Below are positions 21,514-28,047 of a stretch of 43,114 nt of DNA, in pieces. The notes beneath the pieces are model-generated. The model saw only the letters and a list, made by a program, of their open reading frames with translations, searched no databases and was not told the origin of the DNA. Source of the stretch: Hydrogenobacter sp. (lineage in GTDB: Bacteria > Aquificota > Aquificia > Aquificales > Aquificaceae); contig JBEULM010000010.1 in the NCBI GenBank assembly GCA_041287335.1, positions 1-43,114 on the forward strand, written 5' to 3'. The number at the start of each line of letters is the position of its first letter. Position 1 is the stretch's first letter. Both the position numbers and the translations under genes were made by a program.

Positions 21514-21934
21514 GTATCTCCTCCAAACTGTTTACGTGTTCAACACCTTCAACGTTATGAGTTCTATAACCTACAACGTATTTCTCCAGTATAAGGGCGT
21601 AAGCTATCTCAGAAAGTGTTCCCCAATGTCCTCCTATAGCGATCACCATATCACCGCTCGCTACCACTATAGGATTTCTATTCCAGTTCATCCCCGTTTT
21701 TATCTTTATATCTACAAAAGGGTTGGCTTCCTCCCCTGTATAGGATGGCAATATGCCTATGCTGATACCCCCACCTTCTTTAACTCCCTTGCACACGCCT
21801 TCCATTACACCTCCCCTACCTCCACATACAATCCAGATACCCCTTTTTGCAAGTTCATAACCTAACTTGTAAGCGATCCTATATTCTTCTTCTGTAGCCT
21901 TAGAGGATCCTATAACGGATACGATCCTTTTCAT
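21476..21934 (-). CDS. TIGR00725-type Rossmann nucleotide-binding protein (SLOG fold)
   Basis: A 152-residue protein of the LOG/DprA-like SLOG superfamily. The family's nucleotide-binding glycines are present in VCGGRGGVMEGVCKGVKEGGG and the acidic/glycine stretch VIAIGGHWGTLSEIA. Relatives include lysine decarboxylase-like cytokinin-activating phosphoribohydrolases, but this subgroup is uncharacterised. The ATG at 21934 forms an ATGA overlap with the preceding gene, favouring it over a TTG three codons upstream. It sits between a propeller-like protein and a helical unknown, so an activity on nucleotides linked to them is possible but unproven. Confidence 0.82.
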   Translation of the reverse strand: MKRIVSVIGSSKATEEEYRIAYKLGYELAKRGIWIVCGGRGGVMEGVCKGVKEGGGISIGILPSYTGEEANPFVDIKIKTGMNWNRNPIVVASGDMVIAIGGHWGTLSEIAYALILEKYVVGYRTHNVEGVEHVNSLEEILERVDRFYGRRS

Positions 21935-23106
21935 GATATGCAAGAAGAAACGAGAGAGGGTATATCCTCTTGGAAGGTTTTAAAAGTTGAGTGCTTTTTT
22001 AAGATATGGTCAAGCATATCCGTATTGAGAGTGATACGATCTCCTTCACCTTTTATGAGCTCAAAGCGTTTTCCATACTCTAACAGACTCTCATAGTAGC
22101 CGGGATTGGAAAAGAGTACAAATATCTCAGGGAAGTATTTGGAAAGTCTAAATACGAGCTTCTCCATTTGGATGTTCCTTTCATCGGATCTCACATCAAG
22201 CAGTCCACGTTTTTCTTTGATACTTACTTTTGATCCCTTCTCCCTTTCAAAAAGCATCAGGGAAGCAAACACTATGGCTGATAAGGTGGTTAGGTCTATC
22301 TTTTGGTAGTTGTCCCCAAGTATGTCAGCTTTTGAAGCTACCTGTAAACCCTCCTTTTTGTATAAATACAGATGGTTTAAACCTTCCGAAAAGGATAGGT
22401 AAGAACTGTCACTTATATGAGCTATCCTCCCCCCCGCCTTACCGAAAATGTGCAGTCCGGTAACTGTAAGAAGGAAGGTGTGATACACGTTGTACTCTGC
22501 TTTTATTGGTTTTCCGTCAAATTCGCCTGCTGACGTGACTTCCATATCTTCGCTCATGTTTAAAACTTTTCCATCATCCCTCACGGCAACTGGTCCTTCC
22601 TCGCTCATAACCAATATGCGTACACCAGCAAGAGCCTTCTCACCAACTTTACCACCGTTCCTTTCAAGCTTGTAAAGGTAACTTTCCGAAGCTACATATA
22701 CGTAATCATCAGATACGCACAAACATCTGAAAGGTTTTTCCATAAGCTCCGAAACGGTGATCCTCTTTATTTCCGCTGGAGAAAATTTTTCCACAGGTAT
22801 TCGGAAAAGACCTGTCTTACCAAGAAGGTAAATCTCACGGTAAGTACACGACAGATCAACTAAGTCATCAGATATGGTAAGAGTTTCTGTGCTTGCATCA
22901 ATTTTGCTAACTCTTACGAAAAGATTTTTGCCTATGCCGTATATATAGTCCTTTGAGTTCACAAGCTTGCTGAGATCTTCGGTAAGTTTTCCACTCTTCC
23001 AGAGTAACCTTACCTCCTCACCTTTTACGAGAGACTCTTTATCGTACGCCTCCACCCTATAATCAGTGTGTACATAAACTCTCTTTTCGTCGCAAAGCAT
23101 ATACAT
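21931..23106 (-). CDS. Unknown protein, beta-propeller-like with helical C terminus
   Basis: A 391-residue protein I cannot assign. Residues 1 to about 270 are a string of short beta-strand repeats (for example DYVYVASESYLYKLE, LNHLYLYKKEGLQVAS) of the sort found in beta-propellers; about 275-391 is helical and charged (AIVFASLMLFEREK, KLVFRLSKYFPEIF). No signal peptide or catalytic motif. A good ribosome site (gaggaga) lies before the ATG at 23106; a second ATG two codons on is possible. It is coupled to the SLOG-fold gene by ATGA. A run of seven G on the coding strand lies at 22435-22429. Confidence 0.7.
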   Translation of the reverse strand: MYMLCDEKRVYVHTDYRVEAYDKESLVKGEEVRLLWKSGKLTEDLSKLVNSKDYIYGIGKNLFVRVSKIDASTETLTISDDLVDLSCTYREIYLLGKTGLFRIPVEKFSPAEIKRITVSELMEKPFRCLCVSDDYVYVASESYLYKLERNGGKVGEKALAGVRILVMSEEGPVAVRDDGKVLNMSEDMEVTSAGEFDGKPIKAEYNVYHTFLLTVTGLHIFGKAGGRIAHISDSSYLSFSEGLNHLYLYKKEGLQVASKADILGDNYQKIDLTTLSAIVFASLMLFEREKGSKVSIKEKRGLLDVRSDERNIQMEKLVFRLSKYFPEIFVLFSNPGYYESLLEYGKRFELIKGEGDRITLNTDMLDHILKKHSTFKTFQEDIPSLVSSCIS

Positions 23107-23129
23107 GTCTTTCTCCTCTTAAAGATATT

Positions 23130-23330
23130 TTACAGCGGGAGCCTCCCCTTTTTCACCCAAAAGAGAATAACAAAGCCAACAAAGAGTGAGGTTATAAGTA
23201 CAGAAATAGGCAAAGCTGATCCTCTGTTGATCCTCTCAAAGGTATCAAGTAGAAAGAGAAAGAGTAAATAAAAGCCATAGATCACCAAAAGCACAGAAAA
23301 GATTTGCCACAATTTACTTAACACTTTCAA
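23130..23330 (-). CDS. Small two-pass membrane protein, TTG start
   Basis: A 66-residue hydrophobic protein with two membrane segments (about WQIFSVLLVIYGFYLLFLFLL and VLITSLFVGFVILFWV) and a short charged link. The start is taken as TTG at 23330 because ggagg, lying in the last codons of the deacetylase gene, is seven bases upstream; this gives the order stop codon, two bases, start. A GTG 14 codons earlier would lie inside the deacetylase gene and lacks a better site. Function unknown. Confidence 0.65.
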   Translation of the reverse strand: MKVLSKLWQIFSVLLVIYGFYLLFLFLLDTFERINRGSALPISVLITSLFVGFVILFWVKKGRLPL

Positions 23331-23332
23331 TG

Positions 23333-24262
23333 TTAAACCTCCAACATGGTCTCTATAGTTACCTTCACACACTCTGCAAGCGCTCTGAGATTGTACCCAC
23401 CTTCAAGAGCGAATAGGGACGGAACTCCGAGTGTTTTGCAAGTGGTTAGGATACTCTCAACTATGCTCTTTACCCCTTGTGTGGTGACGTTCAGGTAAGT
23501 TAAAGGATCATCTCTGTGTATGTCGTAGCCCGCTGAAACAAGTACAAACTCAGGTTTATACTCCTGCACGAGTTTAGGTAACAAGCTTTTGTATATACTT
23601 TCATACTCTTGGTCACCAGCTCCCGCATTAAGTGGCAAGTTGTAAGTGTATCCTAATCCTTTCCCTGCACCCTTTTCTCTGTCAGAACCTGTTCCCGGAT
23701 AAAAGGGGTATTCGTGGGTGGAAAAATAGAAAACTCTGTCCTCTTCGTAAAAGCTTTTCTGAGTACCGTTTCCATGATGAGCATCAAAGTCAATTATAAA
23801 GATCCTGCTCAGGCCTTTGGTAAGAAGGTACCAGGCACCTATGGCTACATTGTTAAAGAGACAAAAACCCATAGCCTTTGAGTACTCAGCATGATGACCA
23901 GGAGGGCGAATTGCACAGAAAACGGTTTCCAGATTGCCCATAAGCAAAGTGTCTATACCTTCAAGTACTCCTCCCACTGCATGAAGTGCAACCTCATAAG
24001 ACTCAGGGACCACATAGGTATCAGGATCCAAGTATCCTCCTCCCGCAGAACAAAAGTCATGCACTTCCTGTATGTATGCGAGATCATGATTTAGGGCTAC
24101 ATCTTTCACATTAGCTCTTCTGGGTTTTATTTTTATAACATCCTTTAAAAGCTTGTTCCTGTCAAGTTCCTGAATTATACTGATTAGCCTATCCATATTT
24201 TCAGGGTGATTTTTCCAGTTATGTTTAAGATATATATCATCATAAACGAAACCCGTTCTCAT
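23333..24262 (-). CDS. Histone deacetylase-fold deacetylase (AcuC-like)
   Basis: Zinc-dependent amidohydrolase of the class II HDAC/AcuC/acetylpolyamine amidohydrolase family, 309 residues. The active site is complete: RPPGHHAE with His123-His124, the zinc motif DFDAHHGNGTQ (Asp160, His162), SAGYDIHRDDPL, and the C-terminal LEGGYNL carrying the glycine-rich loop. Candidate substrates are acetyl-lysine proteins (such as acetyl-CoA synthetase) or acetylpolyamines, and thermophiles make unusual polyamines; sequence alone does not decide. It heads a run of four smaller genes. The ATG lies eight bases after the shared -10. Confidence 0.93.
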   Translation of the reverse strand: MRTGFVYDDIYLKHNWKNHPENMDRLISIIQELDRNKLLKDVIKIKPRRANVKDVALNHDLAYIQEVHDFCSAGGGYLDPDTYVVPESYEVALHAVGGVLEGIDTLLMGNLETVFCAIRPPGHHAEYSKAMGFCLFNNVAIGAWYLLTKGLSRIFIIDFDAHHGNGTQKSFYEEDRVFYFSTHEYPFYPGTGSDREKGAGKGLGYTYNLPLNAGAGDQEYESIYKSLLPKLVQEYKPEFVLVSAGYDIHRDDPLTYLNVTTQGVKSIVESILTTCKTLGVPSLFALEGGYNLRALAECVKVTIETMLEV

Positions 24263-24270
24263 GCGAAAAA

Positions 24271-24280
24271 ATTATATAAT
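24271..24280. promoter_or_regulatory. Palindromic shared -10 of a divergent gene pair
   Basis: The 27 bp between the deacetylase and oxidoreductase ATGs contains attatataat, its own reverse complement. It gives TATAAT on both strands: 24275-24280 (plus, nine bases before the ATG at 24290) and 24276-24271 (minus, eight bases before the ATG at 24262). No good -35 for either. Both messages would be nearly leaderless. Confidence 0.6.
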
Positions 24281-24289
24281 AGAAATCCC

Positions 24290-25681
24290 ATGAGAATAGT
24301 CATAGTGGGAAATGGACCAGCTGCTGCGAGTGCTGTAGAGGCTATAAGGCAGGTAGATAGGGATTCGCACGTGATAGTGCTTTCTGATGAAGATTATCCT
24401 ACTTACGCACCGAACTGTATGGAGAATGTCATAAGGGGGGATATATCTCAGAAGGCGCTTTTTTATAAGGGAGGCTATGCCTTTTATGAAAAGCACAGAG
24501 TGGACTTTAGACCTAAAAAGGAGGTTGTGAGTATAGACAACAAAAGAAAGGTAGTGATAGTGAAAGGTGGTGAGGAACTGCCTTACGATAAATGTCTCCT
24601 TGCTGCGGGAGCTTACAGTTTTATACCCCCTATACCGGGCAATCAACTTGGCGGTGTGACGACCGCAAAGAATCTGGACGATGCAAAGAGGATAAGAAAT
24701 TGGATAACTTCGGGAAAGGTAAAAAAAGCTGTTATAGTCGGTGCAGGTCCGATAGGTGTAGAAGATGCGGAGACGCTTCTGCATATGGGTATTGAGGTAC
24801 ATGTGGTAGAGTTTTTTGATAGGGTCCTTCCTCGTATGTTGGATAAGTTTATGGCTGACAGGTATATGAACGTTCTCGAGCGGGAAGGGATAAAGTTTTA
24901 CCTTAATCATCAGGTGGTGGCTATTCATGGGGAGGACGGTTGGGTTGAAGCTGTTGAGATAATGCACAGAGAGTCAGATAAAAGTAAGTTCATAAAAACC
25001 GATATGGTGATCCTATCAACGGGCGTAAGACCGAGAACCCATTTGGTGCAGGATACGGACATAAAGCTACACATAGATGAGAGTAAAGGAAGGTTGATAG
25101 GTGGTGTGCTTGTAAATGAATATCAACAAACATCCGATCCAGATGTGTACGCAGCGGGTGACATATGTTCGGGAAAAGATGCCTGGGGGAATCACAGATG
25201 GATAGCTCTTTTCCCTACAGCTCAGCAAGGAGGGGCTATAGCTGGCTACAACATGGTAGGACTTAAGATTGAAAATCCGGGGCTTGTGGATTACAATGCG
25301 GTAAAAACCAGATGGGTAACTGCAGGTAGCGGTGGTACCTTTGAGGATGCTGAGGATGCTTTCACGGCTGAATACGAAAACTATCTAATAAAGGTGTTTC
25401 TAAAAGAGGGAAGGGTTTGTGGATATCAGTTTGTTGGCATTCCTAGAGAGCTGAGATCAAACACAAGAAACGCTTTTTTACAAAACATACAAGCTCAAGA
25501 CTTTTTAAGGAAAGTGCTAAATGAGAGAGGTTTAGGTCTTGAAGCTTCTGGTGTGCTTTTTCATCACTTTGTGAGATTCAGAGAAAGAGTTCTCTCTAAG
25601 GAAGCGCTGAAGGCTATAAAGATGGGTATGTTAAGAGCTCTTGCAAATCCAAAATACGAGATTCCCATATTCCATGTTTAA
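24290..25681 (+). CDS. FAD/NAD(P)-dependent pyridine-nucleotide oxidoreductase
   Basis: A 463-residue flavoprotein of the pyridine nucleotide-disulfide reductase superfamily (NirB N-terminal, rubredoxin reductase, NADH oxidase and CoA-disulfide reductase relatives). FAD site GNGPAAASA (7-15), NAD(P) site GAGPIGVEDAE and the second FAD site DVYAAGDI are clear; the last 140 residues form the dimer domain. A cysteine at residue 43 (YAPNCMENVI) stands where CoA-disulfide reductase and NADH oxidase have their single redox cysteine, though the surrounding sequence differs. The ATG at 24290 is fixed by the FAD motif and the -10. The electron acceptor is unknown. It overlaps nadD by eight bases. Confidence 0.88.
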   Translation: MRIVIVGNGPAAASAVEAIRQVDRDSHVIVLSDEDYPTYAPNCMENVIRGDISQKALFYKGGYAFYEKHRVDFRPKKEVVSIDNKRKVVIVKGGEELPYDKCLLAAGAYSFIPPIPGNQLGGVTTAKNLDDAKRIRNWITSGKVKKAVIVGAGPIGVEDAETLLHMGIEVHVVEFFDRVLPRMLDKFMADRYMNVLEREGIKFYLNHQVVAIHGEDGWVEAVEIMHRESDKSKFIKTDMVILSTGVRPRTHLVQDTDIKLHIDESKGRLIGGVLVNEYQQTSDPDVYAAGDICSGKDAWGNHRWIALFPTAQQGGAIAGYNMVGLKIENPGLVDYNAVKTRWVTAGSGGTFEDAEDAFTAEYENYLIKVFLKEGRVCGYQFVGIPRELRSNTRNAFLQNIQAQDFLRKVLNERGLGLEASGVLFHHFVRFRERVLSKEALKAIKMGMLRALANPKYEIPIFHV

Positions 25682-26288
25682 GATCTTCTTTGGTGGTAGT
25701 TTTGATCCTGTACATGTCGGACATCTGATCGTAGCAAGGGATGTTTTTGAAGATTTAAAAGTTGAAAAGATAATTTTTGTACCCGCATTTCAATCACCCC
25801 TTAAAGAACCTCACCGGGCAACTCCCAAACAGAGGCTGGTCATGCTTCATATGGCAACTAAGGGTGAAGGATGCTTTGACGTAAGTGATATAGAGATAAG
25901 GAGAGGAGGCATATCTTACACTATTGATACAGCGCAGGAGCTGCTTTCTCATCTTGGTGAAAGACCAACCTTTTTGGTGGGAGCGGACAGTATTCTAACG
26001 CTCCATATGTGGAAAGATCCTCAAAGACTCACCCAAATCGCCAGATTTGTTATAGCAGACAGAAACAAAAAAGCACAAGAGGTTAAAAAGTACTTCAAAT
26101 TGAATTTTCCCAGTCTGAGAGAAGAGAGGGATTTTTTTATTCTTGAGACCAGAAACATAGATGTATCTTCAACGGAGATAAGGCAGAGATTGAAGGAGGG
26201 GAAAAGCATAAAGTGGCTCGTCCCGGAAGATGTACAAGAGTATATACTGGAAAAAGGTATCTATATTAGAGAACCACCACCGGCTTAA
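25674..26288 (+). CDS. nadD: Nicotinate-nucleotide adenylyltransferase
   Basis: Adenylates nicotinate mononucleotide to deamido-NAD, acting on the product of PncB. The 204 residues start with KIFFGGSFDPVHVGHL, the T/HxGH nucleotidyltransferase signature, and carry the C-terminal SSTEIRQRL motif. The ATG at 25674 overlaps the preceding stop by eight bases and gives the normal family start; an upstream in-frame start at 25641 lies inside the oxidoreductase gene. The 3' end overlaps the convergent SulP gene by 23 bases. Confidence 0.96.
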   Translation: MFKIFFGGSFDPVHVGHLIVARDVFEDLKVEKIIFVPAFQSPLKEPHRATPKQRLVMLHMATKGEGCFDVSDIEIRRGGISYTIDTAQELLSHLGERPTFLVGADSILTLHMWKDPQRLTQIARFVIADRNKKAQEVKKYFKLNFPSLREERDFFILETRNIDVSSTEIRQRLKEGKSIKWLVPEDVQEYILEKGIYIREPPPA

Positions 26289-28047
26289 ATTCTGCAGATT
26301 TTACACTGTAACATTCTCTGAAGACTGCATAAAGGCATCTTTTTGCACAGTACTCATGGTCAAGCCTCTTAAAAAGCTCTACTATGGAGTGACCTTTTGA
26401 ATCAAAGATGAGATCCGCATTTATATGCTTCTCAAACTCTATTCTCTCAAGGATCGGATATACATCACAAGCGATATTTGCCATAGCGGGTTCTATCTTT
26501 TGTTTTCTTAATTCATCAAAAAGCCTCATGAGTGTAAATGCACCGGTAGCATCTATATAATGAACTGCTTCCATATCAAGTAAAAGGAACTTCAGATTAC
26601 CCTTTTCTTTTCTTTCTTTGACTTTCTCAAGCACATACTCGTAAACATACTCAGCATTTGCAAAATACACAGGCATATTGGGTCTTATGTAAAGTATTTG
26701 AGGGCATTGAGGAAGCCTTTCCCTTTCAGCATTGACAAAAGTCTGAGATTGAGGGTTTCTGGTAAGTACTACGAGCCTGGGATACATGGTTTTATATACG
26801 AAAGATCCAAGAGCTATGAGTGTTCCAAGAGTTAGAGCGACCCAAAGCTCCATAAAAAAAACGCTTCCAAAGGTTATACCTGCAACTAATCCATCAATTC
26901 TATTTACCTTGTACAGCTTTAGTATTTCCTGAGGCTTTATGAGGTTTATGACTGCAGAGAGGACGATCGCTGAGAGTGTCGCTTTGGGAAGGTAATAAAA
27001 GGCAGGAGCTACGAAAAGTAAAGTTATACCAACCGCACTGCCTGTTATAATACTCGCAAGGGGAGTTTTTGCACCAAGCTGAAAGTTAAGAGCGGATCTG
27101 GAAAAAGATCCACCTACGGGAAAACCTTTAAAAATGCCTGCTGTAATGTTTGCCATTCCTTGCCCTATAAGTTCCTGATTTGCATCCCATTTGTCACCGG
27201 CTTGAAGAGCGAGGCGCTTTGCTATAGCAACCGCCTCTATAAGTCCAAAGGCGGCAACTACTATAGCACCACCCCAAAGGGAGGCAATAGTTGAAAAGTC
27301 TGCCTTAGGAAAAGATGGAGTTGGTAAACCCTGAGGTACGTTACCCACTATGGCTACGCCAAACTTTTCAAGCCCGTAAAAGTATGAAAGTGATGAGGTT
27401 ATCACGACGGCAATAAGAGCGCCAGGAACGAGAGGGTGTATTTTTTTGGAGATCCATATGACTGTGTAAGCCAAGAGTCCTATTCCCACCGTATAAGGAT
27501 TGATATTTTGAATTTTTTGAAAAATATCAACGACTACCTGATATATTAACGTGCTTTGAGTTATCTTAAAGCCAAGCAGATGTCCCGCCTGACTGAGAGC
27601 TATTACAAGCGCGCCAGCGCTGGTAAAACCTGTTATAACACTCGTTGATATGAGTTCAACTACAAAACCCAGCTTTAACAGACCTATGGTGAGCCTTATA
27701 AAGCCCACCATAAGAGCTAAAACACCCATAAGTGAGATCCATTTATCTGACACAGGTTCTGCCATAGAGTAAAGCACAGATGCGGAAAGAAGTGCTGTCA
27801 TAGCAACAGGTCCTGTAGCGAGAAATCTTGAACTTCCAAACATTGAAGCCAGAATGGTAGGCAAAAAGGATGCGTATAGTCCGTATATGGGAGGCATACC
27901 TGCAAGCAGAGCGTAAGCCATGGATTGAGGTACCAAAACCGCTGCAACTGTAAGACCCGCTATTAAATCTCTTGCGATTTTATCCCGGTCGTAATCCTTA
28001 AGCCATCGTAAAAATGGAGCTACCTCAAAAGATATGGTAATCCTCAT
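26266..28047 (-). CDS. SulP-family anion transporter with STAS domain
   Basis: A 593-residue inner-membrane transporter of the sulfate/bicarbonate SulP (SLC26) family. About residues 20-420 hold 10-14 membrane segments with the family stretch LTVAAVLVPQSMAYALLAGMPPIYGLYASFLP; the C-terminal STAS domain (about 440-560) includes LLLDMEAVHYIDATGAFTL. Substrate could be sulfate, bicarbonate or another oxyanion. It follows the RND pump stop codon directly (TAA then ATG), the last gene of the metal-efflux operon. A convergent 23-base overlap with nadD closes the operon. Confidence 0.93.
   Translation of the reverse strand: MRITISFEVAPFLRWLKDYDRDKIARDLIAGLTVAAVLVPQSMAYALLAGMPPIYGLYASFLPTILASMFGSSRFLATGPVAMTALLSASVLYSMAEPVSDKWISLMGVLALMVGFIRLTIGLLKLGFVVELISTSVITGFTSAGALVIALSQAGHLLGFKITQSTLIYQVVVDIFQKIQNINPYTVGIGLLAYTVIWISKKIHPLVPGALIAVVITSSLSYFYGLEKFGVAIVGNVPQGLPTPSFPKADFSTIASLWGGAIVVAAFGLIEAVAIAKRLALQAGDKWDANQELIGQGMANITAGIFKGFPVGGSFSRSALNFQLGAKTPLASIITGSAVGITLLFVAPAFYYLPKATLSAIVLSAVINLIKPQEILKLYKVNRIDGLVAGITFGSVFFMELWVALTLGTLIALGSFVYKTMYPRLVVLTRNPQSQTFVNAERERLPQCPQILYIRPNMPVYFANAEYVYEYVLEKVKERKEKGNLKFLLLDMEAVHYIDATGAFTLMRLFDELRKQKIEPAMANIACDVYPILERIEFEKHINADLIFDSKGHSIVELFKRLDHEYCAKRCLYAVFRECYSVKSAEFKPVVVL

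Follow-up and report, generated by a model that had tools for sequence, protein, structure and literature searches.

A 27-bp divergent gap in Hydrogenobacter probably acts as a minimal bidirectional promoter of two leaderless transcripts

We analysed a 43,114-nucleotide stretch of DNA (the window), which is contig C10 of the 1.67-Mb genome of a Hydrogenobacter species (Aquificaceae; hereafter G000). The gap at positions 24263 to 24289, which separates a gene for a putative deacetylase from a gene for a putative oxidoreductase, is probably a minimal bidirectional promoter from which two leaderless mRNAs would arise. We regard it as a very compact case of a known kind of promoter and not as a new switch.

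The gap is 27 bp long and lies between two ATG codons that point apart. Its sequence, gcgaaaaaATTATATAATagaaatccc, is laid out as gcgaaaaa-ATTATATAAT-agaaatccc, and the central 10-mer ATTATATAAT (24271 to 24280) is a perfect palindrome that hence presents TATAAT on both strands. On the plus strand, the hexamer at 24275 to 24280 is the predicted -10 element of the oxidoreductase and the gene behind it, and it ends 9 nt before the oxidoreductase ATG at 24290. On the minus strand, the hexamer at 24276 to 24271 is the predicted -10 element of the deacetylase and ends 8 nt before the deacetylase ATG at 24262. The two hexamers share 2 bp, which is the reciprocal overlap of -10 elements from opposite strands expected of a bidirectional promoter. 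Reading by eye revealed no GGAGG-like ribosome site in either spacer, and on both sides the -10-like signal is too close to the start codon to leave room for a 5' leader. Our re-reading of the sequence thus agreed with the preliminary description of this DNA, which had reported one TATAAT per strand, eight and nine bases before the two ATGs, and no ribosome site.

The minus-strand gene (23333 to 24262) encodes a 309-aa protein with a Hist_deacetyl domain (Pfam PF00850, E 4.7e-94), whose PDB relatives include HDAC6 and a lysine deacylase. The plus-strand gene (24290 to 25681) encodes a 463-aa FAD/NAD(P) oxidoreductase with a Pyr_redox_2 domain (PF07992, E 5.2e-58); its PDB relatives include CoA-disulfide reductases and NADH oxidases, and it scored under the NCBIfam cut-off for every one of 25 families (25 of 58 matches listed). 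Both starts agree with those of relatives. The oxidoreductase frame had been listed from an upstream GTG at 24206, within the deacetylase gene; the relatives start at the ATG that corresponds to 24290. A deacetylase start further upstream is barred by an in-frame TAA (24274 to 24272) four codons before the ATG. Behind the oxidoreductase lies a gene for nicotinate-nucleotide adenylyltransferase (nadD; 25677 to 26288, plus strand; TIGR00482, E 1e-50). Its frame had been listed from a TTG at 25641; the first ATG, at 25677, which we placed by counting along the translation, overlaps the oxidoreductase stop, so the two genes are probably on the same mRNA. Downstream of the deacetylase, on the minus strand (21931 to 23106), is a gene for a 391-aa protein that is 71% identical in the sister genome G004 and for which neither Pfam nor NCBIfam gave a hit at E 0.001. 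Rfam returned nothing at the gathering score in 23000 to 26500, ARAGORN detected no tRNA within the window, and the predicted folding of both expected mRNA starts was unremarkable (z -0.68 and -0.73).

Comparison of five Hydrogenobacter genomes indicated that TATAAT placed 7 to 9 nt before an ATG is an ordinary leaderless class in this genus. The pattern TATAATN{7,10}ATG occurred 200 times in G000 against 61 times for a reversed control, and 167 against 36, 173 against 48, 222 against 50, and 194 against 49 times in genomes G001, G002, G003, and G004, respectively, corresponding to a 3.3- to 4.6-fold enrichment. We then profiled distances in 400 kb of G004, using 2,319 ATGs (nested ones counted too) at the head of frames of 100 codons or more. 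TATAAT preceded 10 of these at 7 nt, 9 at 8 nt, and 5 at 9 nt; among the remaining distances from 0 to 44, the 11-nt position had five occurrences and no other had more than three. GGAGG had its maximum 6 to 8 nt before the ATG in the same sample, and the presence of this peak beside the TATAAT peak indicates that leaderless starts and starts with a ribosome site coexist. The column composition of 36 leaderless promoters (29 from the G004 sample and seven from the window, the gap pair and the G004 pair included) revealed no -35 consensus; the absence of a -35 element at the gap is therefore no objection. The enrichment, the distance profile, and the relatives described below all support, at the level of sequence comparison, the leaderless starts that had been proposed earlier for both genes.

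These starts resemble those described by Zheng et al. (2011; PMC3160421), who reported leaderless genes with a TAtaaT signal a few nucleotides upstream of the start codon in Aquificae (two of five genomes; 26.5 [20.7, 32.4] percent). Counted from its first T, that signal lies about 12 bp before the start, whereas the two boxes of the gap lie 14 and 15 bp before it, and, unlike in those genes, one box here would serve two genes. The main text of that article never uses the word “divergent”.

We propose that RNA polymerase with the housekeeping sigma factor would recognise the palindromic -10 in either orientation and would begin transcription about 7 bp past it on either side. Assuming exactly 7 bp beyond each -10, the starts would fall at 24287 on the plus strand and 24264 on the minus strand, 23 bp apart, and would yield two mRNAs whose 5' ends lie about 2 to 3 nt before the ATG, one for the deacetylase and one for the oxidoreductase and nadD. 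Neither side has a recognisable -35 element, which seems to be the rule among leaderless promoters of the genus. If both messages are leaderless, the -10 and its two spacers make up the whole intergenic region; the gap, with barely more than one -10 between the start codons, would then be near the shortest possible divergent start. This suggests that leaderless translation may let bidirectional promoters shrink to about 27 bp.

Bidirectional promoters have been defined as a class by divergent starts 7 to 25 bp apart (Middlemiss et al., 2023; PMC10268837); a spacing of 18 bp is the commonest, and 10 and 23 bp are also common (Warman et al., 2026; PMC12825309), so the spacing implied by the gap is one of the common distances. 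The promoters described by Warman, Grainger, and colleagues (PMC12825309, PMC10268837) likewise lie between divergent genes and have -10 elements that overlap across the two strands; unlike in those, both hexamers of the gap are perfect and no -35 element is seen. Polymerases are unable to bind such a promoter in both orientations at once, but five tested Escherichia coli bidirectional promoters had little competition at basal activity; competition appears when one direction is strongly activated, which can repress the other (PMC12825309). The site in the gap would similarly not be occupied in both orientations at once, with little effect at ordinary activity. Because exclusion would then hardly matter, the two genes appear to be co-located rather than switched. 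Hence, of the earlier suggestion that the shared site makes the genes mutually exclusive, the part that two polymerases cannot bind together is borne out by the published promoters, whereas mutually exclusive genes are not. The two strands may differ widely in promoter strength. In the literature that we searched, the coverage of which was partial, we found no paper on a promoter both leaderless and bidirectional in Aquificota.

The closest comparison is offered by G004, which groups with G000 with a support of 0.94 when both proteins are joined, and of 0.82 and 0.88 when they are taken singly. In G004, about 110 kb separates the start of the deacetylase (1,269,610) from that of the oxidoreductase (1,380,937), and both genes are on the minus strand. 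The window genes between 20161 and 24262 correspond to the deacetylase region of G004, and those between 24290 and 33696 correspond, in inverted orientation, to its oxidoreductase region, which places the break at the gap itself. Each separated gene nevertheless has ATTATATAAT before it, 8 nt from the deacetylase ATG (box at G004:1269619-1269628) and 9 nt from the oxidoreductase ATG (box at G004:1380947-1380956), exactly as in G000, with the spacers and neighbours around the boxes changed. Both boxes lie within one identical 16-mer, ATTATATAATAAACAT, and each copy of this 16-mer abuts an inverted-repeat end of one insertion-sequence-like family. The twin 16-mers, about 110 kb apart, have the look of a duplicated shared promoter.

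Since the separated genes each keep a box, the common ancestor probably already had the shared site, and the two genes can probably do without being coupled. The simplest history would start from an ancestral shared palindrome, followed by an insertion that duplicated the box and a later rearrangement, the order of these events being our reconstruction; alternatively, two loci may have been joined at a repeat. Under either history, the box has been kept at both genes and the coupling has not. We limit the claim of duplication to the 16-mer common to both G004 genes, because a long flanking repeat occurs at just 1 of 16 element ends. The preliminary description had named loss of the palindrome in relatives as evidence against its reading: the palindrome is kept in G004, but the shared gap is lost there, and no such box precedes the oxidoreductase in G001 to G003, in which, by eye, this gene starts close behind another reading frame.

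Across a wider set, the deacetylase was matched in 97 out of 101 genomes. Among 30 deacetylase loci, the window's own included, 19 had an exact TATAAT 7 to 10 nt before the start, four had five of the six letters, and seven had neither. For the oxidoreductase, the corresponding numbers among 30 loci, again including its own, were 8, 4, and 17, with one locus cut by a contig end; leaving its own out, 7 out of 29 loci (one of them contig-cut) had an exact TATAAT at the leaderless distance. This difference between the genes is what one would expect if only one strand of the palindrome worked, most likely that of the deacetylase, and if the oxidoreductase were mainly read from inside the deacetylase gene, its own TATAAT being an inevitable mirror image. 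A weak promoter-like match on the plus strand at 24212 to 24240 could serve such a start. However, the 3-kb region from 23000 to 26000 contained nine promoter-like matches against a mean of 5.9 (sd 2.7) in shuffled sequence, hardly over chance; a long leader would be no help, because the plus-strand spacer has no ribosome site; and the oxidoreductase of G004 retains its TATAAT at 9 nt even where it stands alone. We therefore consider a single working strand unlikely. The same promoter scan gave no candidate with the plus-strand TATAAT of the gap as second hexamer, and on the minus strand it gave a candidate with TATTAT (24281 to 24276) as second hexamer, matching at 9 of 12 positions.

The deacetylase and the oxidoreductase adjoin in G000 alone, that is, at 1 out of 30 deacetylase loci read up to 1.5 kb on each side, and the pair is thus not conserved as neighbours in relatives. 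In two genomes of another genus (G024, contig C62, and G035, contig C70), both genes are on one strand and about 3 kb separates the deacetylase from the oxidoreductase upstream of it; some link between the genes is therefore possible. Such a hint, together with the exclusive binding of polymerase and the repression of one direction under strong activation of the other (PMC12825309), would suit a designed switch in which polymerase binding sets the ratio between the deacetylase and the redox enzyme, as had been suggested earlier. We nevertheless judge such a switch very improbable, and ratio setting finds no support: the genes adjoin at a single locus and are parted by about 110 kb in G004, competition at basal activity was small at the five E. 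coli promoters (PMC12825309), and the single longer inverted repeat that surrounds the gap is not retained in G004.

The position of the palindrome between two start codons is more than chance. Exact ATTATATAAT occurred once in the window against 0.06 expected from shuffles, four times in the whole of G000 against once for the reversed string, and 16 times across the five genus genomes against nine times for the reversed string, so that the 10-mer alone is mildly enriched. The full arrangement, CATN{6,12}ATTATATAATN{6,12}ATG, had 17 occurrences, distributed over 15 out of 61 genomes of the family, and the reversed pattern had none in the same 61. At the 15 of these 17 places for which the DNA was read, frames of at least 100 codons were present on both sides in 11 cases and four failed; sorted by eye, the 11 represent seven gene pairs. 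Within the genus, 9 of the 15 copies of ATTATATAAT with a locus (16 copies in total) had, by our reading, a frame of 60 codons or more whose ATG lies 4 to 15 nt away on at least one side. If the palindrome were an AT-rich coincidence and both genes were transcribed from elsewhere, the weak excess of the 10-mer in the genus would be readily explained, but its position, its spacing, its retention at both G004 genes, and the 15-to-0 count for the full arrangement would not, and we find such a coincidence scarcely credible. Least credible of all is that the palindrome and a surrounding imperfect inverted repeat (arms 24256 to 24266 and 24286 to 24296, 91% complementary and almost concentric with the palindrome) form an operator for a dimeric regulator: the 11-nt arms are made up largely of the start codons and second codons of the two genes, whose proteins both begin Met-Arg (ATG-AGA), and in G004 the deacetylase starts ATG-AAA, so that its arm differs, as do the flanks.

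Minimal bidirectional promoters of the kind proposed for the gap may also exist elsewhere, as the sequence comparison indicates that the CAT-palindrome-ATG arrangement is recurrent in the family across different gene pairs. For an MscS-like/CutA-like pair (named by eye), the genes lay 26 to 31 bp apart at 4 out of 24 loci. Three of these four had the exact palindrome and the fourth had ATTATATATT; the three include the locus of the query itself, and the MscS-like proteins at the other two share 49 and 51% identity with the query. This pair and the 15 family genomes support, again by sequence comparison, the earlier proposal that both directions share a symmetric -10. A NadD-like/500-aa protein pair (names again by eye) from four genomes of one genus is also among the divergent pairs with a palindromic -10 (L061-L075).

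Within G000, two further divergent pairs, on contigs C32 and C35, have gaps of 38 and 34 bp with TATAAT at the leaderless distance on both sides; their -10 elements are separate, 12 and 8 bp apart, whereas the gap pair shares one box. A second ATTATATAAT, at C9:933, likewise presents TATAAT on both sides, but its spacers are longer than those of the gap, with 11 nt to the ATG of a 496-codon frame and 15 nt to that of a 246-codon frame. We rejected C9:933 and G004:426527 as a conserved palindromic gap, as the frame lengths are similar and the encoded proteins different, and we rejected C20:29048 (ATTATAAT) as a second overlapping pair, as its right-hand frame has just 20 codons. The gap at 24263 to 24289 is the tightest confirmed in G000 among the matches listed (100 of 248 single sites).

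Taking the family and G004 together, we tentatively suggest, while thinking it somewhat less probable than its opposite, that Aquificaceae repeatedly build a minimal divergent start in which a 10-bp palindromic -10 and two spacers of 6 to 11 nt form the whole intergenic region and yield two leaderless mRNAs; that selection would preserve the palindrome as its spacers, gene partners, and context vary; and that an insertion-sequence-like element split one such site in G004, leaving each gene with its own box. If this is true, G004 represents the natural separation of a shared promoter. With one shared box in G000 and a separate box before each gene in G004, the two genomes offer a clean natural comparison between shared and separate versions of one promoter in a thermophile, which bears directly on whether the sharing of a -10 affects expression of either gene.

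The ends of the insertion-sequence-like family, AATTTCTCACYYRRSGT, occurred 31 times exactly in four of the five genus genomes, and the reversed pattern did not occur. Copies of the element lie at about 61480 to 62438 on contig C47 of G000 (L114) and at G004:1380957-1381333 (L096), with further ends in G001, G002, and G004. The G000 copy spans 959 bp and has an open frame of 298 residues that looks transposase-like by eye; Pfam gave nothing above its cut-off for the 276-aa part scanned (best E 0.074). This copy is flanked by a direct repeat, 26 of 27 bases alike, that contains TATAAT and lies just before a tRNA-Val gene. We rejected the idea that the family generally makes long target-site duplications, because this repeat was the only one among 16 ends, namely those with a partner end within 1.5 kb, with some elements counted twice, from both ends. 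An exact TATAAT was present within the next 25 bases at 15 out of 30 distinct element ends with a locus, against 308 out of 20,000 random 50-mers from the G004 sample with TATAAT anywhere, a set that includes coding DNA and in which a preference for promoters and survival at promoters are inseparable. It is thus possible that the element seeks promoters.
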